A stretch of DNA of 33,548 nucleotides from positions 1 to 33,548 of the forward strand of contig JABDNZ010000488.1 in assembly GCA_013043565.1 (NCBI GenBank), given 5' to 3'. How positions within the stretch are numbered: the first letter of the stretch is position 1; every line of letters starts with the position of its first letter. The position numbers and the translations under genes are program-made. This stretch comes from Gemmatimonadota bacterium (lineage in GTDB: Bacteria; Gemmatimonadota; Gemmatimonadetes; Longimicrobiales; Gaopeijiaceae). The notes below the pieces were generated by a model, which saw nothing but the letters and a program-made list of their open reading frames with translations, was not told where the DNA came from and did not search any database. Below are positions 3,010 through 17,646 of the stretch, piece by piece.

Positions 3010-5589
3010 CTAACCTCGGTAGATCCCTCCCTCAGGCCCGTACCTCTCGATCAGAGCTTGTATCCGCGGATGGTCGAAGACTTTCTCGAAATCTCGGGTG
3101 AACAGGGAGGGCACGGCTCGGACTCCCGGGACCGAGAAAACCGTCTCCAGGGCATCGGCGGTCTCTTCCGCCATCCCGAGAGCCGCGTAGATGTAGGCGG
3201 CCGTCTCGAGGAGATCCCTTCCAAACACCGGATCTTTCGTTATTGGCAAGATTTCTCGAACCAGCCCGACCTGCTCCAAGGCTTCTTCGCGACGTCCGAG
3301 GAGTGAATAGGCTCGTCCCAGGGAGGCATGGATCCTCGGGTCGCCGGGCTGGAGTTCCAGGGCCGACAAAGAAATCTCGATGCTTCTTTCGAAGGCCCTG
3401 TCTGCCCGGGCCGAGTCGATGTGCTGGTATGTCCAGCCCTCGATCAGCTCCCGGGGAGCCCACCAGAACCCGCCGAAATCCAGGATCGGGTCCTGGATCT
3501 TTTCAAAGGCTTCGATCTTGTCCTCAGGTTCAGGTGTGATCAGCCACTCGAAAAAATCCCTGAGCCCGTAAACGTTGGATTCAGGCGGCAGCTTGGCCAG
3601 GGCTTCCAATCCGGGTCTGTGGTCTCCGCTGTAACGCCACTCCAACCACCCCATGGTGAAGGTGGCCTCGTGGAAGTCCGGATAAGCGTCCAGGAGCCTG
3701 GCCATGACGGCATCGGAATCGTCCCACCGGTCATGTTCGGCATAGGCGGAGGCCAGACCGAGTTGTAGCTCGGGGTTCCGAGGGTCCAGAAGAGCCGCGC
3801 GTTCTCTGCTGGCTAGGGATCCGGCCCAATCCCAGTTCCGGGTTTGGAGCTCGGCTTTCAGGCTGAGGAGGGCTGCCCAACCCGGAGCGATCTCCTCGGC
3901 TCGGGCCAACGACTCCATGGCCTCATCGTTCTGATAAAGCAGGTAGTGGAAAAAAGCCCGGGCCGAGTGGATCTCGGCCGATTCCGGATTGATCTGTAGC
4001 CCTCTCTCTGTAGCCTCCCAAGCTTCTGCTAGATGGCCGGGATCGCGGTCGTAGTAGAGGTAGAGGTAGCAAAGCGTGGAAGCCAACCCGGCATGGGCCA
4101 TGACGAAGTCAGGATCAAGCTCGGCGGCCTGGGCGTACATGGTTCGGGCCGTTTCCAGGTCGTCCGGTTCCCAGCCTGGACGGTTTAATGCGTCTTCTCC
4201 CCGACGCCAGAAGGTGTAGGCCGCCAGGTTGTCGGTGGGCATTTCATCCAACCGGGCCTGATCTGCGGGAGCCAGTTCCGCCTGGAGGGCCTGAACCACT
4301 TGTTGAGCCAGATCGCTCTGGATCGCGAAGACGTTTTCGACCGTGAACTCCCTGTCGTACGTCTCCGCCCAGAGGTGGGCATCGGTCTGGGTGTCGATGA
4401 GCTGGACGTTCACCCGGATCTGCCCGCCCGCCCTCATCACGCTTCCTTCCAGAACCGAATGGACCCCCAACTCCTGTCCGATGGTCGGGATCGTCTTCTC
4501 GGTATCTGCATACTACATCACCGATGTGCGGGCGATGACGTCCAGGCTGGGAACCTTCGACAGTTTTGTCAGGAGGTCGTCGTGGAGCCCCAAGGCGAGG
4601 AAGGCTGCTTCCCCCTCGGCGTCAGCGCTCATGTTCTCGAAGGGCAGAACGGCGATTGCCGGCCGCTCGCGGGCTTCCGCAGTGGTCCCGACCACCCCTG
4701 GGGCTCCGACCGGGCCCCCTCCCGGAGCGAACACCGCCACGGTTCCACCGGCTATGGTCAGCAGGAGGGCGATCATCAAGAGTTCGGGCCCCGTGATCCT
4801 TTGGCGGCCGGGCTCGCCGTGGTACCAGGCAACTACGACGGTGATGAAGAAGCCCGCCGCAACGAGGATGGCGGTGGCTTTTGGGACGAGGGCCGGCCAA
4901 AGGAACTGGTTCCCGGCGAAGCCGACGATCTCCAGCAGGGCCCAGGCCCCGGCCAGGTACGCCAGGGCCCACGGTACCACAGCACGGTCTTTGATTTGCT
5001 GGAAAACGGTGTCGGCCCGGGTTTCCGGCCGGCCGTGAACCGGCGCTTCCGCCTTCGCCTCTGGTTCCTGGCTGGGTACGGTCAGACCCTCATTGGAAAT
5101 GGCATAGACGGATACGGGGTCCACGACGTTCTTCAGCTGGACCGATCCGAGGGAAACAGCCGAAATCGACGGATGGTTCTTGATCTCGTCGAAGACTTTT
5201 CCGGAAACCGTCACTCCCCCGGGCGAAGCGAGCCCCTCGATCCGCGAGGCCAGGTTCACACCGTCCCCGTAAACACCGTCCTCATCGTGAACGATGTCGC
5301 CGGTATGGATCCCGATTCTCAGGGGGATGACGTCTTCTTCGCCCACGGCCCGCTGAACGGCTACCGCGCACTCGACGGCCTCGACCGCGCTGGAAAAAAT
5401 GCTGAGAGTGCCGTCCCCGTAGTATTGGAGGATCTCCCCGTGATGTCCTTCCACTGCGGAGGAGATGAGTACCCTGTGTTTGTCCCTCTGGCGCCTTGCT
5501 TCCGCCTCATCTTCCTGCATGAGGGCGGTGTAGCCCACCATGTCCGCAAACATGATGGCCGCTAGTTGGCGTTTCCCTGGTTCAGCCAT
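3010..5589 (-). pseudogene. Class III cyclase domain + TM helices + TolB-N-like + TPR protein, interrupted by an in-frame TAG (ORFs 4513-5589 and 3010-4470 are in the same frame)
   Basis: Reverse-strand reading across the gap gives ...SLDVIARTSVM*YADTEKTIPTIGQELGVHSVLEGSVMRAGGQIRVNVQLIDTQTDAHLWAETYD..., which is continuous homologous sequence on both sides of the stop at 4513-4515. The downstream ORF 'start' at 4470 is a TTG inside the conserved domain. Confidence 0.8.
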
Positions 5590-8021: not shown

Positions 8022-8867
8022 TCACCCCCCGACCGGCTCACCGATATCCCGGATGCAAAGCCAACTGCCATCGTCCTGTTGCTCGTACACGGCAAGCCAG
8101 TTCGATAGAGAAGTGGTGGTGTCACCGCTGCCAGGAGGAGAAACGGTGCAGGTGTCCCTCCCCCAGCCGACGCCGATGGATCCCACCATCTCGAAACCGT
8201 CGAAGCTCCCGGAACAGACCTCGTCCGATTCGGCCCACGAGGCTTCAAAGCGAGCAATGATGGCCTCCCGCCCCAGGGCGTCGCGGAGCCGCGCGTCGGC
8301 GGTGTAGATGTCAGCCAGCCGCTCGGCATCCCTGGAATTGAAGGCATCATACCATTCTGACAGGAGATCCGCTGCCCATGAAGGTGCTCCGCCGTTCGGA
8401 GTGGTCTCCAGGGACATATCCGCCACCACTTTCCAGCCGCCAGCGATCTTCCGATACACGGTCATGTATCGGCCGCCAATGCCTCCGGGGCTCTCGAATC
8501 CCCCATGTTCGACAGCGAGGTCACCGGAAGCGGCGATATCGTAATGATCCGGCCCCCATGAGCCCTCGTTATTGGGATTGAATGCGTAATTCTTGGCCAT
8601 AAAGGACTCGACTGCTTCCGGGCCGGAGATAAGCTCCCCCTGCTCCCAAGCAAGGGTGCCTTCCGGGCCAAACAAGCCTGCCACGCCTGCGGCATTCTGT
8701 TGGTCGTCAAAGGCCTGCCATTGGTCCGACACGGCTCGGAGGGCGGCTTCTTCTTCCGCCAGATCCACCGGGGAGCCCCCCGTCGGGGGTCCACATCCGG
8801 AAAAAACGATCAGACCGGCGGGGATCAAGATCGAAAGACCTGCTCTGGTGAATTGATGAAAGAACAT
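8022..8867 (-). CDS. Lipoprotein with two tandem NTF2-like (SnoaL/DUF4440-type) domains (281 aa)
   Basis: N-terminus ...LIPAGLIVFSGCGPP (lipobox-like). Two segments of NTF2-like character: 'EEAALRAVSDQWQAFDDQQNAAGVAGLFGPEGTLAWEQGELISGPEAV...YMTVYRKIAGGWKVVADMS' and 'LLSEWYDAFNSRDAERLADIYTADARLRDALGREAI...'. Confidence 0.75.
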   Translation of the reverse strand: MFFHQFTRAGLSILIPAGLIVFSGCGPPTGGSPVDLAEEEAALRAVSDQWQAFDDQQNAAGVAGLFGPEGTLAWEQGELISGPEAVESFMAKNYAFNPNNEGSWGPDHYDIAASGDLAVEHGGFESPGGIGGRYMTVYRKIAGGWKVVADMSLETTPNGGAPSWAADLLSEWYDAFNSRDAERLADIYTADARLRDALGREAIIARFEASWAESDEVCSGSFDGFEMVGSIGVGWGRDTCTVSPPGSGDTTTSLSNWLAVYEQQDDGSWLCIRDIGEPVGG

Positions 8868-8899: not shown

Positions 8900-11800
8900 C
8901 TAATCTATCTCAATCCCGGTGAGGTTCCCTACCCGACCCCTTTCCACCTGGGCCCCCTGCCAGATGAAATAGATGACCGGTACGACGACCAGTGTGAGGA
9001 CGGTCGCGGACACCATCCCGCCCACCATGGGGGCGGCGATCCTCTTCATGACGCTTGCTCCGGTGCCCGATCCCCAGAGGATGGGCAAGAGCCCCACGAT
9101 GATCGTGGTGACGGTCATCACCTTGGGCCGGACCCTCATCACCGCTCCCTCCATCACGGCGTCATGAAGCCCCTCCAGGCTGATCCTACCTCGGCGAATC
9201 CGGTCGTCCCAGGCGTGGTTGAGGTAGAGGAGCATGATGACGGCTGTTTCGGCGGCGACCCCGGCCAGGGCGATGAACCCGACCCCCGTGGCCACCGACC
9301 AGTTGTAGCCCAGGAAGAACATGATCAGGATGCCACCTACGAGGGCGAAAGGGAGGGAGCCCATCACGATGAGGGTTTCGCCTACCCTGCCGAAATTCAG
9401 GAAGAGGAGGATGAAGATCAAAAGCAGGGTGGCGGGCACCACCAGGGCCAAACGAGCCCGGGCTCTCTCCATGAACTCATGCTGTCCGGACCATTCGAGC
9501 GTGTATCCCGGGGGAAGGGTGACCATGGCGTCCACCATGTCTTGTGCCGCCCGTACATACCCACCGATGTCATCGGAATCAACGTCCACGAATACCCAGA
9601 CGGTCGGGAAGGCCCCCTCGGTTTTGATGGACATGGGGCCGTCGGCGATCTCGATGGTGGCGATCTGACCCAGAGGAATCTGCGTTGCTCCACCCGGGTC
9701 CATGGCCGATGGCATGCCGTTCCCGACCCCGGTGCCTGCCGTCTGTCTGACCGGCACAAGGATTTCCGAGATCCTCTCCGGTCGGTCCCGCAGTTCTTGC
9801 GGGTAGCGTACCCTCACCCCGTATCTCTCTCGCCCCTCTACCGTCTGTGTGATCTCCATTCCGCCAACAGCCGAGGCGATGACCATGTTCGCATCGCGGA
9901 CGTTCACGCCGTAGCGGGCAGCGGCGCCCCGGTCGAGTTTGATGTTGAGGTATCGTCCCCCCAACGGCCGCTCCGACACGGCCGACCGAGTGCCGGGCAC
10001 CATAGCCACGGCATTCTCCACCTCCCTACCCAGTCGTCCCAACTCAGCCAGATCGGGCCCGAAGATCTTGATCCCAACGGGGGTTCGGATTCCGGTGGCG
10101 AGCATGTCGATCCGGCCTTTGATGGGCATGGTCCAGGAATTCGGGATGCCCGGGAATCGGATGGCTTCGTCCATCTCCTGGATCAAACCGTCCCAGGTCA
10201 GACCTTCCCGCCAATCCTCCTCCGGCTTAAGGACGATGGTGGTCTCGAACATGGCCAGGGGTGCCGGGTCCGTTGCCGTGTTGGCCCTGCCGGCCTTCCC
10301 GAAAACGGATTCCACTTCAGGAAAAGTCGCCAGGATGCTGTCCTGCTTCCGCATGGCTTCATGGGCCGTACGAACGCTTATCCCCGGAAGGGTCATGGGC
10401 ATGTACATCATGGACCCCTCGTTCAGGGGCGGCATGAACTCGGAGCCGATGCGCTGAAGGGGGATCATGCTGAGGATGACCACGGCGAGGGTCACTCCGA
10501 GTACGGGCCACCGCCAGCGGAGGGCGAACTCCAACACAGGCTTGTACACCCAGACCAGGAATCGATAGACCGGGTTTTTCTCCTCCGCCGTGAGGGTGCC
10601 TCGCACGAAGAGCCCCATGGTCACTGGAACCATCGTGAGAGCCAGAAGGCTCGCTCCCCCCATAGCCAACGTTTTCGTCCAGGCCAGAGGTTTGAAGAGC
10701 CGTCCCTCCTGGGCCTCCAGGGCGAAGACCGGAAGGAACGACACCGTAATGATGAGGAGGCTGAAGAAGAGGGCTGGCCCGACCTCTTTCGAAGCCCGGA
10801 GGACGATACTCCATCGTTCTCCGGAGCTGAGCAGTGAGGTAGGGAATCGCCCCTCGGGTATGCCAAACCCCGGGTCCCCCGGTCCCGCCCTTCGGCACTT
10901 TTCCCCGATCTCCCTCTCGAGGTGTTTGTGCATGTTCTCGATCATGACGATGGCGGCGTCGACCATGGCGCCAATGGCGATGGCGATTCCCCCGAGGCTC
11001 ATGATGTCGGCGTTGATCCCCAGAAAGCGCATGGCGATGAACGCCATGAGGATCCCCAGCGGGAGGGTGAGAATCACGACCAGCGCGCTTCGGACGTGAA
11101 AAAGGAAAACCAGGCACACGAGAGCCACGACGATGGACTCCTCGATGAGCTTCTCACGAAGGGTGTCGATGGCTCGGAGGATCAGCTCGGACCGATCGTA
11201 TACGGGTTTTAGGGTCACGCCCTCAGGAAGGCCGGCCTGGATTTCGGCGATCTTCTCTTTGACCAGGCCGATGGTGGCGAGGGCGTTTTCTCCAAACCTC
11301 ATGACGACGATGCCGCCCACCACGTCCCCTCTCCCGTCGAGATCGGCCACCCCCCGCCTGACCTCGGGGGCGAGTTGGACATTCGCCACGTCGGCGATAC
11401 GGATGGGTGCCCCTGTCTCCGAGGCGGCCAGTACCACCGACTCGATGTCGCCCAGGCCCTCGATATAGCCCAGTCCCCGGACCATGTATTCCCGGTCCGC
11501 CATCTCCAGTACCATGGCCCCCACGTCCTGGTTGGCGGACCGAATGGCTTCCATGACCTGGTGGACTGAGACGCCAAAGCCTCTGAGACGATCAGGGTCG
11601 AGCGTGACCTCATAGGCCCGCTCGAATCCCCCCACCGAAGCCACCTCGCTGACTCCCGGGACCGAGGTCAGCTGGTACCGGAGGAACCAATCCTGGATAG
11701 ATCTCAGGTCGGCCAGGGAGTGGGTCCCCGAGTTGTCTTCCAGGACGTACTGGTACACCCACCCAAGTCCTGTGGCATCGGGCCCCAGAGCCATTTCGGC

Positions 11801-12172
11801 ACCCTCGGGAAGTCGGCTCTGAATCCCCGACAGGTACTCCAGAACCCGGCTGCGGGCCCAGTAGATGTCCGTTCCGTCTTCGAAGATGATGTAGACGAAG
11901 GAGACCCCGAAGAATGAGTATCCCCGGACTGTTTGGGCGCCGGGGACCTTCAGCATCTCGGAAGCGATAGGATAGGTGACCTGGTCTTCCACCAACTGGG
12001 GGGCTTGGCCCTGGTAGTCCGTCTGGATGATGACCTGGACATCGGAGAGATCCGGGATGGCCTCCAACGGTGTTCTGATCATGGCCAGGATCCCGGCCCC
12101 TGCCGTGATCAGGCCCAGGATCAGCACGAGGACCTTATTGCGGACCGACCATTCAATCACCCGTTTCAGCAT
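8900..12172 (-). CDS. cusA: Heavy-metal efflux RND permease, CusA/CzcA family (1090 aa)
   Basis: MLKRVIEWSVRNKVLVLILGL..., SLGGIAIAIGAMVDAAIVMIENMHKHLE, EGSMMYMPMTLPGIS, RIDMLATGIRTPVGIKIFGPDL, GFIALAGVAAETAVIMLLYL; HME-type RND signatures. Confidence 0.95.
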   Translation of the reverse strand: MLKRVIEWSVRNKVLVLILGLITAGAGILAMIRTPLEAIPDLSDVQVIIQTDYQGQAPQLVEDQVTYPIASEMLKVPGAQTVRGYSFFGVSFVYIIFEDGTDIYWARSRVLEYLSGIQSRLPEGAEMALGPDATGLGWVYQYVLEDNSGTHSLADLRSIQDWFLRYQLTSVPGVSEVASVGGFERAYEVTLDPDRLRGFGVSVHQVMEAIRSANQDVGAMVLEMADREYMVRGLGYIEGLGDIESVVLAASETGAPIRIADVANVQLAPEVRRGVADLDGRGDVVGGIVVMRFGENALATIGLVKEKIAEIQAGLPEGVTLKPVYDRSELILRAIDTLREKLIEESIVVALVCLVFLFHVRSALVVILTLPLGILMAFIAMRFLGINADIMSLGGIAIAIGAMVDAAIVMIENMHKHLEREIGEKCRRAGPGDPGFGIPEGRFPTSLLSSGERWSIVLRASKEVGPALFFSLLIITVSFLPVFALEAQEGRLFKPLAWTKTLAMGGASLLALTMVPVTMGLFVRGTLTAEEKNPVYRFLVWVYKPVLEFALRWRWPVLGVTLAVVILSMIPLQRIGSEFMPPLNEGSMMYMPMTLPGISVRTAHEAMRKQDSILATFPEVESVFGKAGRANTATDPAPLAMFETTIVLKPEEDWREGLTWDGLIQEMDEAIRFPGIPNSWTMPIKGRIDMLATGIRTPVGIKIFGPDLAELGRLGREVENAVAMVPGTRSAVSERPLGGRYLNIKLDRGAAARYGVNVRDANMVIASAVGGMEITQTVEGRERYGVRVRYPQELRDRPERISEILVPVRQTAGTGVGNGMPSAMDPGGATQIPLGQIATIEIADGPMSIKTEGAFPTVWVFVDVDSDDIGGYVRAAQDMVDAMVTLPPGYTLEWSGQHEFMERARARLALVVPATLLLIFILLFLNFGRVGETLIVMGSLPFALVGGILIMFFLGYNWSVATGVGFIALAGVAAETAVIMLLYLNHAWDDRIRRGRISLEGLHDAVMEGAVMRVRPKVMTVTTIIVGLLPILWGSGTGASVMKRIAAPMVGGMVSATVLTLVVVPVIYFIWQGAQVERGRVGNLTGIEID

Positions 12173-13494
12173 TATCGGCTCCCGGCCGTGTCAGGGGGCA
12201 TGACATGGCCGGAGTGGTCCATCTCAGCGCCGGTTGTGTCGGCCGGCGGATCCCCCATCTGGTGCTGGGAATGATCCATGCCCTCATCACCTGCGGGTTC
12301 CCCCCCCATATCCATCATCGAGTGGTCCATCCCGGCCATGGCGGCCATGGCGGCGCCCAGATTGGATTCGGCGTCGATGAGGAACGTGGCCGACGCCGCG
12401 ACCACGTGGCCCTCACGCAGGCCCGACAGGACTTGGATCTGATCACCACTACTCAACCCGGTCACTACCTCCATGGGATGCAGCTGCCCGTTGGACATCC
12501 GATGGAATACCACCGATCGCTCCCCGGTCTGTAGCACCGCCGAACGGGGGACCAGAAGGGTCTCTTCCATGTTCCCCCCGTGAAGCTCCACCTGGGCATA
12601 CATCCCCGGCTTGAGCTTGAGGCCGGGGTTGGGAAGCTCGAGGCGGACTCGTCCGGTCCGAGAAGAAGCGGACACCGTGGGGTAGATGTAGGTGACCGAG
12701 CCGTGGAACATCTCCCCGGGGTATCCCTCGAAGCTCACCATGGCGTGTTGCCCTTCCCCTACAATGGAGATGTCCTTCTCGAACACCTCCGCGTCCACCC
12801 AAACCCGGCCGAGGTCGGCCAGCTGGAACAGGTCCATTCCCGGAGCGATCCGGGCACCCACGACGACGTTTTTCTCCACGACGACTCCTGAAGCCGGAGC
12901 CCGGAGGGTCAGGGTTTTGGCAACGGTGCCTCGGTCTTCCAGGGCTTGGATCTCCGCCTCGGGGATGTCCCAGTAGGCCAGCCGGCGACGGGCGGCTGTC
13001 AGGAGCTCATCGGCACTCTTCATGGCCCGGTCGCCTCCCCCTGCCTGGGCTTCCTCCAGAAGGCCCTTCGCCAGAAGAAGCTCCTCCTGGGCCGTGACGA
13101 GTTCCGGGGAATAGACCTCCATCAGCGGCTGGCCGGCCCGGACATTCGCACCGGTGAAGTCCACGAAGAGCCGCTCCACCCACCCCTTGATCTTCGGGCT
13201 CACGGAGCTGAGCCGGGTTTCGTCGTACGTAACGAAGCCCACGGTGTTCACGGTTCGAGGCAGTGACCCGGTGACGACGGTGGCGTAGGTCACGCCGATT
13301 CTGGCGGCGGCATCAGCGCTCAAGCTGACCGGCTGGGCTTCGTCGCTGCCCGCCGACATTGCCGAGTGGTCGTGCCCTTCCATGTCCTGATTGGCAGGGA
13401 CTTCCGAGCCTCCCCGAAGGGAGAAGGCGGCCAATGTCACCGCGGAGAGGATCACGATAGTCAGTGCCAAGAAGACCTGAGAACGCGTTTTCAT
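12172..13494 (-). CDS. cusB: Efflux RND periplasmic adaptor subunit, CusB type, with Met/His-rich termini (440 aa)
   Basis: GFVTYDETRLSSVSPKIKGWVERLFVDFTGANVRAGQPLMEVYSPELVTAQEELLLA; MDHS-rich tail; TAATG overlap with cusA. Confidence 0.93.
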   Translation of the reverse strand: MKTRSQVFLALTIVILSAVTLAAFSLRGGSEVPANQDMEGHDHSAMSAGSDEAQPVSLSADAAARIGVTYATVVTGSLPRTVNTVGFVTYDETRLSSVSPKIKGWVERLFVDFTGANVRAGQPLMEVYSPELVTAQEELLLAKGLLEEAQAGGGDRAMKSADELLTAARRRLAYWDIPEAEIQALEDRGTVAKTLTLRAPASGVVVEKNVVVGARIAPGMDLFQLADLGRVWVDAEVFEKDISIVGEGQHAMVSFEGYPGEMFHGSVTYIYPTVSASSRTGRVRLELPNPGLKLKPGMYAQVELHGGNMEETLLVPRSAVLQTGERSVVFHRMSNGQLHPMEVVTGLSSGDQIQVLSGLREGHVVAASATFLIDAESNLGAAMAAMAGMDHSMMDMGGEPAGDEGMDHSQHQMGDPPADTTGAEMDHSGHVMPPDTAGSR

Positions 13495-14849
13495 TGGATC
13501 TCCAAAATGAAATCGCCGCTGACCGGGAGGTCGCGGCCGATGGTCTGTTCCAGTTGAGCCACAGCGGAACCGTAGTCCGCGAGAAGGTCGAAGTACTCTC
13601 CGTCAAAGCGGTTGACCGCCATTTGGGCATCGACGAGGGCCATGAAGTCCAGAGCTCCCACACGGTAGGAGGCAAGGGAGGACTCCACGCCCGCCCGGGC
13701 TTGCGGAAGGATGTCCTCCCTGTACAACCGGAGGAGGTTCCTGGCACGGTCCAACTCGGCCAGGGTCTGGTTTATGCTCGCGTTCACCAATGTCCGTGCC
13801 TCCTCCAACCGGACCGCCGCGAGGCTTTCCAGGACGGTCGCCTCTTCCCTGAGCTTTCTCTGCCGCTTCCCGGCGTAGAGGGGGACGCTGAACCCGACCG
13901 AAGCGCCTCCCATGTTGGTGGGGTCGCCTTCCATGCGACCCAGGGCGTAGTGGAGTCCCACCGTGAGGTCCGGCCAGATGGCTTTCTCGGCAAGCCGGCG
14001 GTTGGAGGTCGCTCGCTCGGCGGCCAGCTCCATTCCCTGCAGTGCCGGTCGGGTTTCAAACGCCCATTCGGTGAGTGCAGCCAGAGATGGAAGGTCGGCG
14101 GGTAGATTCGGCAGTTCGGGGGAAGGGAGTGGTGTGTCGGCCGATTGGTTCACCACGGCGTTCAGCTTGGACTCGGCTCCCCTCCTCAGAGCCGAGAGGC
14201 GCTCAATGTCGGCCTCCATCCTGGCAGCGGCCACTCCGGCTCTCAAAACATCGGCTTGGGGGCCGGTACCTGCTCCATATCTCGAGAGGGCCACGGTTTC
14301 GAAATCCTCGAGAAGAGACAGGGTCTCCCGGAGGACCTCGATTCCGCGGTCGATTCGGTAGAGTTCGTAGAACCCGACCGCGGCTTCGGTCCGTACGCCC
14401 CACCAGGTCTCCTCGGCCAGCACTGAGTCGATCGCCGTGGACTGTTTGGCGATTTCGTCTCGCACCGACCGTTTTCCGGCAAGGGGGAACCGCTGGGCCA
14501 GTTGGAAGGACGGGGCCATGGACGCGGGCATCGTGGCTGAGAACTCCGGGAGAGCCAGGTTCGCGACGCCGACCATGAACGTGGGATCGGGCAGCAATCC
14601 GGCCTCGGACTCCCGGGTTCTGGTTGCGTCCACCTGGAGGGCGGCCGCTCGTAGCCCCGGGCTCCGCTCTCGGACAAGCGCGAGGAGGCTTCCGAGGTGG
14701 AGCTTCGCCTCTTCGACGTCGGACTCCGGGGTTTCAGAGGACTGAGGGGTACGCGGTGGCCGGCCCTGCGCACCCAAAGGCTGGTGGATAGGCAGGACGA
14801 CGAGAAAGAAGGCGGCCAGGCCGGCCGCCAGCATGGTGTTCTCCTTCAT
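13491..14849 (-). CDS. cusC: TolC/CusC-family outer-membrane efflux protein (452 aa)
   Basis: Signal peptide MLAAGLAAFFLVVLPIHQPLGAQ; paired outer membrane efflux repeats (LRAAALQVDATRTRESEAGLLPDP..., LQGMELAAERATSNRRLAEKAIWPDLTVGLHY). 4-bp ATGA overlap with cusB. Confidence 0.9.
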   Translation of the reverse strand: MKENTMLAAGLAAFFLVVLPIHQPLGAQGRPPRTPQSSETPESDVEEAKLHLGSLLALVRERSPGLRAAALQVDATRTRESEAGLLPDPTFMVGVANLALPEFSATMPASMAPSFQLAQRFPLAGKRSVRDEIAKQSTAIDSVLAEETWWGVRTEAAVGFYELYRIDRGIEVLRETLSLLEDFETVALSRYGAGTGPQADVLRAGVAAARMEADIERLSALRRGAESKLNAVVNQSADTPLPSPELPNLPADLPSLAALTEWAFETRPALQGMELAAERATSNRRLAEKAIWPDLTVGLHYALGRMEGDPTNMGGASVGFSVPLYAGKRQRKLREEATVLESLAAVRLEEARTLVNASINQTLAELDRARNLLRLYREDILPQARAGVESSLASYRVGALDFMALVDAQMAVNRFDGEYFDLLADYGSAVAQLEQTIGRDLPVSGDFILEIQ

Positions 14850-14915
14850 GACCCTCGACCCCGGAGGAAGGGAGAATGGAATTTCTAGGCTAGCCCAAGA
14901 AGGGTAGGGTTTGCT

Positions 14916-14948
14916 GGGTGAAGTGAGGATGAAGAGAGTATGAAGAAG
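14916..14948 (-). promoter_or_regulatory. Candidate OmpR/PhoB-family response-regulator operator: three 11-bp direct repeats upstream of the efflux operon
   Basis: gggtgaagtga / ggatgaagaga / gtatgaagaag in tandem. TGAAG occurs at 14919, 14930 and 14941, a spacing of exactly 11 bp, in the 107-bp gap between the kinase stop and the cusC start. Confidence 0.6.
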
Positions 14949-14956
14949 TCTTAATC

Positions 14957-16405
14957 TTATTTAGGGGATCGGGCCGCGTCCCCAACCGCCGCGTGCGGCA
15001 GGCTTGCACGGAATAGGGCTCCACCTTCTGGCCGATTCTCGGCTTTGATCGATCCATGGTGGAGCTCCACGATGGCCTGAGCGATGGCGAGCCCAAGGCC
15101 CGTGCCGGATTCGAGCTCCCCAGGGGTCCGGGATTCGTCGGTCCGGTAGAATCGTTCGAATATCTTTTTCAGCTCATCCTCCGGGATTCCCGGGCCCTGG
15201 TCGGCGATCTCCACCAGAGTGGCGCCATCGGTTCGAACGAGATGAACCTCCACCCGGCCACCCTGGGGTGAGAACTTCACTGCGTTTCCGAGAAGGTTCC
15301 AAACGACGCGGTCGAAAAGATCTGGATCCACACTCGCCTCGACGGGAGAGCCCCCTGGACCCAAAAGCTCGATCCCCTTCTCCTGGGCTTCGTTGGATAA
15401 CCTGGACACGGTCCGGTTGATTCGGTCCACCAGATCGACCTTCCGGAAGTGGGGCTTCAGTACCCCTGCCTCCGACCGGGTGAGGGTGAGGAGGTCCTCT
15501 GCCAACCGTGATAGGCGCTCCGACTCTTCCAGAGCGCTGTCCAGGACTTTCACGTACTCCTCGGCGGTCCGATCCCGCCTGAGGGCGACCTCGATCTCCC
15601 CTCGGAGTGCGGTCAGCGGCGTCCGAAGCTCATGGCTGGCATCAGCGGCGAATCTCTTTTGGGTTTCCAGGGCAGCGCTGAGACGGCCCAACATGTCGTT
15701 CAACCCCTGGACCAGGCGTTGATACTCCAGGGTGTCGGCGTAGGCGTCGATCTTTCGGCTGGGTCCCCCTCGGGCGATGCCCTCGGCCTGGTCGATGATG
15801 CGGTCCACAGGCCTCACTACCTTGCCCGCCAACCACCACGATCCGGCAAAAGTACTTGCACCTATGGTCCCGAGGATGCCGAGAAGGAGAAGGCCGACGC
15901 TCTTGAGCATCCGGTTCCTCTCCTCCATGGGTGCCGCGACCTGGAGGACATGCCGGGTGTGAAGCTCCCCCAATCTCTCCAGTGGGTAGTACAAGGCTCG
16001 GATCGGTCTCCCCTGGAAGGTGCCCCGAGTCCAAACCAATTCGTCTGATGCCGCCCGTCCCAGCGCGGCAGAGTCGAGAGGCAGGTCATCGGTGATGTAG
16101 CGCCCCCGTACCAGGCTCTCACCGTCGGCGCTCCAGATCTGGGCGTAACGGTTCAGCTCTCGTACGGAGGCGGCCTCTTCGGGCGTAAGCTCCCACTCGG
16201 GGAATCGCATCGTCCCCGTAGGATCGTCCGTCACCGCAGCCGCCTGGATCGTGGCGACGTTCAGGAGCGAAGCGTCCAGCTGGCGGTCCAGCCCCTGCCG
16301 GAGGCTCAAGTAGCTCAGAACGGCTACCGCCCCCACCGCCGCGATCACGGCGGCCGTCACCCGGACGCCGAGCAGGACACGAAAAGACCGCATCTTCGAG
16401 CTCAT
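14957..16405 (-). CDS. Two-component sensor histidine kinase, CusS/heavy-metal-sensor type (482 aa)
   Basis: Two TM segments, HAMP-like region, H-box RFAADASHELRTPLTALRGEIEVAL, N-box VWNLLGNAVKFSPQGG, G-boxes DQGPGIPEDEL and GTGLGLAIAQAIVELHHGSI. Confidence 0.93.
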   Translation of the reverse strand: MSSKMRSFRVLLGVRVTAAVIAAVGAVAVLSYLSLRQGLDRQLDASLLNVATIQAAAVTDDPTGTMRFPEWELTPEEAASVRELNRYAQIWSADGESLVRGRYITDDLPLDSAALGRAASDELVWTRGTFQGRPIRALYYPLERLGELHTRHVLQVAAPMEERNRMLKSVGLLLLGILGTIGASTFAGSWWLAGKVVRPVDRIIDQAEGIARGGPSRKIDAYADTLEYQRLVQGLNDMLGRLSAALETQKRFAADASHELRTPLTALRGEIEVALRRDRTAEEYVKVLDSALEESERLSRLAEDLLTLTRSEAGVLKPHFRKVDLVDRINRTVSRLSNEAQEKGIELLGPGGSPVEASVDPDLFDRVVWNLLGNAVKFSPQGGRVEVHLVRTDGATLVEIADQGPGIPEDELKKIFERFYRTDESRTPGELESGTGLGLAIAQAIVELHHGSIKAENRPEGGALFRASLPHAAVGDAARSPK

Positions 16406-17082
16406 GCCGGTTCTTTTTCGCTCAGGATGTATCCCACTCCCCGAACTGTGTGAAGCAGCGGCTTATCGCCGTCCGATCGGAGCTTCTGCCGAAGCTTCGC
16501 CACATGGACATCCACCACGTTGCTCATGGGATCGAAACGCAGATCCCAGACCTTCTCCAGAAGAAGGGTTCGGCGCACCACTGCTTCCGGGTGTAGAAGG
16601 AAGTGTTCCAGCAATTGAAACTCCTTCGCTGTCAGCTTCAGGTCCCGGCTCCCTCGGTACGCGACATGTTGGATCCGATCCATCTCCACGTCTGCGTATC
16701 TGAGCCGCTCCGACCTGTGAGATCCACCCCTGCGGATCAGCGCTCGCACTCGTGCCAGAAGGACTTCGAAGCTGAAGGGCTTCGTCAGATAGTCGTCGGC
16801 TCCCGAGTCCAATCCGCGAACGATGTCTTCGGCCGTGTCCCGAGCGGTGAGCATGAGGATCGGGACCACGGACCCCTCTCTCCGTAGCTCTCGGAGGATC
16901 TCCATTCCGGTCTTACCGGGCAGCATCAGATCCAAAACCAGGAGGTCGTAATCGTGGACATGAGCCATGAGGGCTCCTTCCGTGCCGTCATGAGCCACAT
17001 CCACCGAATAGCCATCCTCCCTGAGCCCCTGCTCCAGGAAGCTGGCGACCTTCTTGTCGTCCTCCACCACGAGGATGCGCAT
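16402..17082 (-). CDS. OmpR-family two-component response regulator (226 aa; start chosen at MRILVVEDD)
   Basis: MRILVVEDDKKVASFLEQGLREDGYSVDVAHDG, DLLVLDLMLPGKTGMEILRELR, and a C-terminal winged helix (LTAKEFQLLEHFLLHPEAVVRRTLLLEKVWDLRFDPMSNVVDVHVAKLRQKL). The ORF-track start at 17205 adds 41 non-homologous residues. ATGA overlap with the kinase. Confidence 0.95.
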   Translation of the reverse strand: MRILVVEDDKKVASFLEQGLREDGYSVDVAHDGTEGALMAHVHDYDLLVLDLMLPGKTGMEILRELRREGSVVPILMLTARDTAEDIVRGLDSGADDYLTKPFSFEVLLARVRALIRRGGSHRSERLRYADVEMDRIQHVAYRGSRDLKLTAKEFQLLEHFLLHPEAVVRRTLLLEKVWDLRFDPMSNVVDVHVAKLRQKLRSDGDKPLLHTVRGVGYILSEKEPA

Positions 17083-17120
17083 GGATGGGAGCCTCCCGTC
17101 GCTGGGGAAGGGTGAGCGCA

Positions 17121-17136
17121 ACCTGAATTTGCAGGT
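17121..17136. promoter_or_regulatory. Inverted repeat ACCTG-N6-CAGGT upstream of the response regulator
   Basis: acctgaatttgcaggt, 38 bp from the response-regulator start codon in the divergent intergenic region. Confidence 0.3.
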
Positions 17137-17229
17137 CCTCCGGGTGTTCACACCACTGGTAACCAAAGGGTCCAAACGGGGTAGTCGGGAGAACCTTGAT
17201 CGCAACTTTCAATCTTGGAGTCGGAAGAA

Positions 17230-17646
17230 ATGATGGGTCGTAGAAGAGCGGGAGTGTTCTCCGCAGGTTTGAGCCTTGCCTTGGTCACGTTTGTCGCCGC
17301 TTGTGCTGGAGAGCCGGCCGCCCAGGCGGGCTATTTGGACATTTCTGTCGAGCAGCTTCGGGAGATGATGAACGAGGAGGATCTCACTCTGGTCAACGTT
17401 CACATCCCATTCGAGGGCGACATTCCAGGCACCGATGAGAGCATCAAGTTCGATGAGATCGCGTCCCACCTGGACCTCCTCCCCGAGGATAGAGATGCGA
17501 AGATCGTGCTCTATTGCCGCAGCGGAAGAATGAGCGAGGAGGCCGGAAGCACCTTGGCGGACCTCGGCTTCACCAACGTGTTCAACCTCGAAGGTGGATT
17601 CCGAGCCTGGGCAGCGGCGGGGTATGAGCTGGAGGGGGTCTCCTAG
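17230..17646 (+). CDS. Rhodanese-like domain lipoprotein (138 aa from ATG 17230)
   Basis: [27 protein letters not shown] (lipobox VAAC); rhodanese active-site loop [32 protein letters not shown]. Confidence 0.85.

Follow-up and report, generated by a model that had tools for sequence, protein, structure and literature searches.

What switches on the efflux operon that follows a two-component gene pair in this member of the Gemmatimonadota (family Gaopeijiaceae), and to which metal does the switch respond? The question is raised by three short tandem repeats in the window, that is, the whole stretch of 33,548 nucleotides analysed here (contig JABDNZ010000488.1), which a preliminary description had placed at 14916-14948 and proposed as a candidate operator of the neighbouring response regulator. 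TGAAG is indeed present on the plus strand at exactly the positions given there, 14919, 14930 and 14941, with an 11-bp step, and the gap between the stop of the histidine kinase gene (14957) and the start of cusC (14849) is 107 bp, as described. As the efflux operon is encoded on the minus strand, the functional reading of the repeats is CTTCAT/CTTCAT/CTTCAC, and the operon strand carries CTTCAT-N5-CTTCAT-N5-CTTCAC directly behind the histidine kinase stop codon. We found that the repeats belong to a conserved promoter switch with four half-sites, of which they form three. Very probably, they are the promoter-operator core of the CusCBA-like efflux operon and the predicted binding site of the regulator encoded at 16402-17082.

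Anatomy of the site

The three repeats within 14916-14948 are real, but this span is too short, as it omits an inverted half-site (14950-14955) and a -10 element (14901-14906). Along the minus strand, the site from 14955 to 14901 reads ATTAAG ACTT CTTCAT ACTCT C TTCAT CCTCA C TTCAC CCAGCAAACCC TACCCT, corresponding to the operator/promoter module RTGAAG-N4-CTTCAY-N5-(C)TTCAT-N5-(C)TTCAC-N11-TACCCT, the consensus of which was derived from 145 sites. The inverted upstream half-site, ATTAAG (consensus RTGAAG), is followed by half-site 1, CTTCAT (14940-14945), which doubles as the inverted pair's right arm, by half-site 2, CTTCAT (14929-14934), 11 bp downstream, and, another 11 bp on, by half-site 3, CTTCAC (14918-14923), which adjoins the position expected for a -35 hexamer. 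The -10 element, TACCCT (NANNNT), lies 12 bp past the third TTCA. It ends 52 bp upstream of the cusC ATG (14849), and the distance from the last TTCA to the cusC start is 70 bp.

TGAAG-N6-TGAAG has two overlapping matches in the window versus 0.06 expected from dinucleotide shuffles. TTCATN6TTCATN6TTCA occurs a single time in the organism's own 4.4-Mb genome (an assembly of 579 contigs), and with up to 3 mismatches allowed no site besides that of the window was found in this genome. The window was left out when a 55-bp weight matrix was built from 90 other sites; this matrix gave 47.1 bits for 14901-14955 (-2.8 for the next site in the window; 10.0 for the best of 30 Markov shuffles), a score that overstates the independence of the match because the triplet had been used to select the matrix sites; the independent support therefore comes from the unselected positions, namely TTAAG, the C at 14945 and TACCCT.

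A conserved promoter rule

The 145 aligned sites had been chosen by the triplet alone, and two further elements emerged from the alignment unsought: an inverted TGAAG that precedes the first CTTCA by 4 bp (-31 to -27, counted from the first T of the third TTCA), and, in the same numbering, an A at +18 and a T at +22, representing the -10 element NANNNT. Among 91 sites from families with a close relative of the kinase, TGAAG with at most one mismatch was present at the exact offset of the window site in 78, compared with no more than 12 at other tested offsets, while NANNNT was found at one offset in 72 and at any other in no more than 5. These 91 sites also have the 6-4-6 inverted geometry RTGAAG-N4-CTTCAY (the Y of CTTCAY belonged to the search pattern; TGAAG did not). 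Between the TTCAY units, the spacers are low in information. As read from the aligned sites, the promoter rule is TGAAG-N4-CTTCAY-N6-YTCAY-N6-TTCA-N12-NANNNT, from which the window site departs by one mismatch, within TGAAG (TTAAG).

There is no -35 consensus: at positions -5 to -1, which had no part in the selection and correspond to the place of a -35 hexamer, the information is at most 0.1 bit. This points to activator-dependent promoters. With a site abutting a conserved -10 element at a fixed distance and no -35 consensus, the arrangement is that of a class II (PhoB-like) promoter. The strict geometry and the fixed -10 distance are direct observations, as are the conservation and the intergenic position described below.

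Several loci (L066, L088, L099 and L104) carry divergent double operators, with two triplets on opposite strands standing back to back. The gap from TGAA to TTCA in these is always 6 bp, so that the divergent genes are separated by a symmetric 3+3 array. On this basis, an ordinary site may be regarded as a TGAA-N6-TTCA core with an extension on just one side.

Conservation and link to the adjacent two-component system

According to the preliminary description, loss of the repeats at orthologous loci would speak against an operator. No such loss was seen: the repeats, the 11-bp step and their place are kept across genera and families. Relatives of the kinase were collected from 59, then 394 genomes, and many of them have YTCA triplets at 11-bp steps behind the kinase stop codon, even when the next gene is a different one. 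In 40 larger regions, the triplet often lies directly behind the kinase gene or precedes the regulator gene by 79-176 bp. The flanks of 20 of the 37 loci with relatives of the kinase/regulator pair contain YTCA triplets at the 11-bp step; at the 16 other steps between 6 and 22, none of the 37 loci does, and reversed letters gave none either. At a matrix threshold of 12 bits, a flanking site was present at 23 of these loci and was not found at the other 14. A search of 395 genomes of the phylum for the composite operator pattern, allowing no more than one mismatch, was positive in 40, versus none for the reversed pattern.

The response regulator (16402-17082, minus strand), the probable binder, is of the OmpR/PhoB family, as had been proposed, since it carries Response_reg and Trans_reg_C domains (PF00072 and PF00486). 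Its best-scoring NCBIfam model is that of heavy-metal response regulators, TIGR01387 (250 bits, below the curated cut-off of 279.2). The sensor kinase (14957-16405, minus strand; 2CSK_N, HisKA and HATPase_c domains), the stop codon of which is 1 bp before the operator, likewise scores best against the heavy-metal sensor kinase model TIGR01386 (263.6 bits, below the cut-off of 292.55). Of 34 genomes with a close kinase, 31 have triplet sites, versus 83 of the 360 without one (Fisher p = 2e-15, which is indicative only, as the genomes are related by descent and not independent). The sites also co-localise with the system: 30 of 89 sites in positive genomes fall within 1 kb of the kinase gene, versus 0.08 expected. 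Whenever a regulator gene stands behind a site (9 of 9 cases), it is an orthologue of the window regulator, with 66-72% identity.

A site upstream of the regulator gene is present at 15 of 37 related loci, unlike in the window, where no autoregulatory site was found upstream of this gene (17083-17240; best matrix score, -14 bits). No close kinase was found in the related genus members G001 and G002. Searches of named genomes returned distant kinases only (28-34% identity), and those of plasmid records, Cupriavidus and Variovorax kinases only (36-38%). One kinase among the collected loci (L018/L080, G011:C255) is 49% identical to that of the window.

Target genes and the likely metal

The first target gene encodes a TolC-like outer-membrane efflux protein (cusC-like; 13491-14849; PF02321). 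It is followed on the same minus strand by genes for a CusB-like membrane fusion protein (12172-13494; PF16576 and PF13437) and a CusA-like RND pump (8900-12172). The pump scores 1164.5 bits against TIGR00914 (CusA/CzcA heavy-metal RND), above the cut-off of 701.45, and its closest relative is CusA, with 1168 bits for E. coli CusA versus 497 for ZneA. The three metal-relay methionines of CusA, in LLYMPST, PLEMVET and RIDMLST, have their counterparts in M591, M641 and M690 of the window pump. Judged by these comparisons, the pump resembles CusA and not ZneA/CzcA, and, with the three CusA methionines kept, Cu(I)/Ag(I) would be the likely signal. The lineage-specific metal-response site suggested in the preliminary description can thus be narrowed to a copper (silver) site on the strength of the CusA-like pump and the copper genes downstream of the related sites, with the metal response itself being predicted from these genes.

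Of 136 sites, 134 are intergenic, as called with a home-made mini gene finder, although noncoding DNA makes up 13%, and the next start is mostly within 150 bp. The module stands before other genes and divergent genes too, on either strand. Behind 80 sites of the positive families, the first genes include those for a TolC-like outer-membrane efflux protein (11), the regulator itself (9), multicopper oxidase (6), PCYCGC protein (6), DUF5676 (4), LTXXQ (4), CopC (3), HMA (3) and P-type ATPase (3). Copper genes as targets across related genomes are observed directly, as is the co-localisation with the two-component system. In one genome (G186), 10 sites lie within 20 kb, with two more before the regulator gene. 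This island (L159 and L160; G186:C20:194000-222000) contains genes for a P-type ATPase with an HMA domain, an HMA protein and CopC, together with PCYCGC, DUF5676, DUF2933 and PLD genes. Its unknown families are candidates for a copper-related function.

A SnoaL/DUF4440-like gene (8022-8768) lies downstream of the pump gene on the same strand, and in a relative a DUF4440-like gene is found directly behind an operator (L066:8942-9394). Elsewhere in the window, genes with a guanylate-cyclase-like catalytic domain are present at 316-2973, where TPR repeats are also encoded, and at 4513-5553.

Alternative explanations

The site could be a true operator that is bound mainly by another OmpR-family regulator of the genome, or by several cross-binding ones. 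The genome has many kinases (26 matches), and one box is common to CusR, CopR and CzcR of Pseudomonas (PMC11195947). In families without a close kinase, the triplet and the -10 element are present while TGAAG is mostly absent. Such sites (L105-L131 and L178-L197, in families f6, f7 and f10) stand before genes unrelated to copper, among them those for 2Fe-2S proteins, hemerythrin and Phd/YefM antitoxins. They are probably the operator of another OmpR-family regulator, and they indicate that a different regulator can use a similar sequence. Nevertheless, the clustering of sites at this particular kinase is far above chance, every regulator gene behind a site is an orthologue of the window regulator, and the presence of sites tracks the two-component system, so we consider it unlikely that another regulator is the main binder here.

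We regard it as still less probable that the conserved sequence works in RNA, as a terminator or leader between the kinase gene and cusC, without binding a protein. Such a role would fit a sequence that begins 1 bp past the kinase stop codon. On the other hand, it would not account for a module that also precedes other and divergent genes on either strand with its -10 element at a fixed distance, and the conserved pattern consists of direct repeats about one helical turn apart rather than of a long stem with T residues after it. The least credible explanation, to which we give practically no weight, is that of chance repeats or a local tandem duplication lacking function. Short tandem repeats are common, and matches in family f7 were treated cautiously because several are simple tandem arrays with identical spacers. 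Conservation at orthologous loci refutes this explanation for the site studied here: TTCA and the step are conserved while the spacers are not, orthologous sites occur in many genera, and the controls are near zero.

Proposed mechanism

Most likely, the Cu(I)/Ag(I) efflux operon is activated by the phosphorylated regulator, acting at a site that overlaps the -35 region. The kinase would sense periplasmic Cu(I)/Ag(I) and phosphorylate the regulator. From the anatomy of the site, the phosphorylated regulator would then occupy four half-sites on one face of the helix, these being the inverted pair ATTAAG-N4-CTTCAT and two direct half-sites at 11-bp steps, the last of which may reach the -35 region. 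PhoB recruits sigma70 polymerase at the -35 region in a class II manner. As the last half-site would reach the -35 region of a promoter that has a conserved -10 element and no -35 consensus, the window regulator would recruit sigma70 polymerase in the same class II fashion.

Comparison with known operators

The PhoB boxes of E. coli are tandem direct repeats, 11 bp centre to centre; they differ from the window site in letters and signals, and no inverted half-site is described for them. The ArcA boxes of E. coli are also direct repeats 11 bp centre to centre, often 3-5 of them, but they differ in letters and signals, have no fixed place against the promoter, and are described without an inverted half-site (PMC3798270).

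The preliminary description regarded the site as unlike the palindromic CusR box of E. coli. This is correct for the letters but not for the geometry, since the fourth half-site creates the 6-4-6 inverted arrangement that CusR ATGACA-N4-TGTCAT has in common with RTGAAG-N4-CTTCAY (PMC11195947). As predicted for the window site, the CusR box AAAATGACAAnnTTGTCATTTT, quoted in that source, lies next to the regulator genes and governs cusC(F)BA; it has TGACA instead of TGAAG, is a perfect palindrome, and is presented there with no tandem half-sites. The CusR sequence TGACAAnnTTGTCA is absent from our sites, the consensus of which is TGAAGNNNNCTTCA. The AgrR box of Cupriavidus metallidurans, ATKACANNNNTGTMAT, combines a 6-4-6 inverted repeat with in-phase direct repeat(s), as here; both kinds of repeat contribute to activation from a class II position, and the targets include metal-resistance genes and, through autoregulation, the promoter of the regulator gene itself, as for the sites in this study (PMC7380067). 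Its half-site letters, ATTACA, differ, and its extra direct repeat is imperfect and confined to some of the operators (PMC7380067); in the present sites, two strict direct repeats are the norm.

The box of CopR, a copper-responsive two-component regulator of Corynebacterium glutamicum, is TGAAGATTTnnTGAAGATTT, with TGAAG direct repeats at an 11-bp period as here and with binding demonstrated by EMSA and mutations (PMC3140484). Like the window site, it is a single site beside the regulator genes, and it activates copper genes; however, it has two repeats of a longer unit (9 bp), no inverted partner has been described, and it is placed upstream of cg3286, 266-285 bp from the mapped start, and is not fixed against a -10 element (PMC3140484). 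Two TGAAGATTT repeats with a 2-bp linker, which define the CopR box, are not present in the window site, which shares TGAAG and the 11-bp step but not ATTT. The putative CopR site of Synechocystis, TTCATN4-5TTCAT, consists of TTCAT direct repeats, as here, and occurs at the promoters that drive the regulator operon and copBAC, which encodes an RND copper pump; it differs in its period (9-10 bp as written), in having two repeats, and in that no inverted half-site is mentioned (PMC4182526). No operator was found in the literature on Myxococcus CorSR, and no description of the composite site was found among open-licence papers. Having parts in common with several known boxes, the site is not a member of any one of them; by its sequence, the operator is one that unites the inverted geometry of CusR/AgrR with the 11-bp direct repeats of Corynebacterium CopR.

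Implications

The switch precedes copper-defence genes and travels with an adjacent copper-type two-component regulator in a mostly unstudied bacterial group. For a lineage whose genomes often consist of hundreds of contigs, it yields a rule by which copper regulons can be read from sequence. One efflux operon is given a likely trigger, and dozens of genes in relatives, several of them without a known function, are predicted to be co-regulated. How one OmpR-family regulator combines inverted and tandem half-sites could be tested on this natural case.

We consider it an evenly balanced question whether a copper regulon extending over several families of one class is controlled by an obligate hybrid operator, made up of a CusR-type inverted pair and a PhoB-type tandem extension. 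If so, the inverted pair would nucleate one regulator dimer and the tandem extension would bring further subunits to the -35 region, with the TGAA-N6-TTCA core being extended on one side for one promoter or on both for divergent promoters. The PCYCGC family, DUF5676 and DUF2933 proteins encoded behind the sites would then be copper-defence proteins, and what are classically two types of operator in this regulator family would be halves of one machine.
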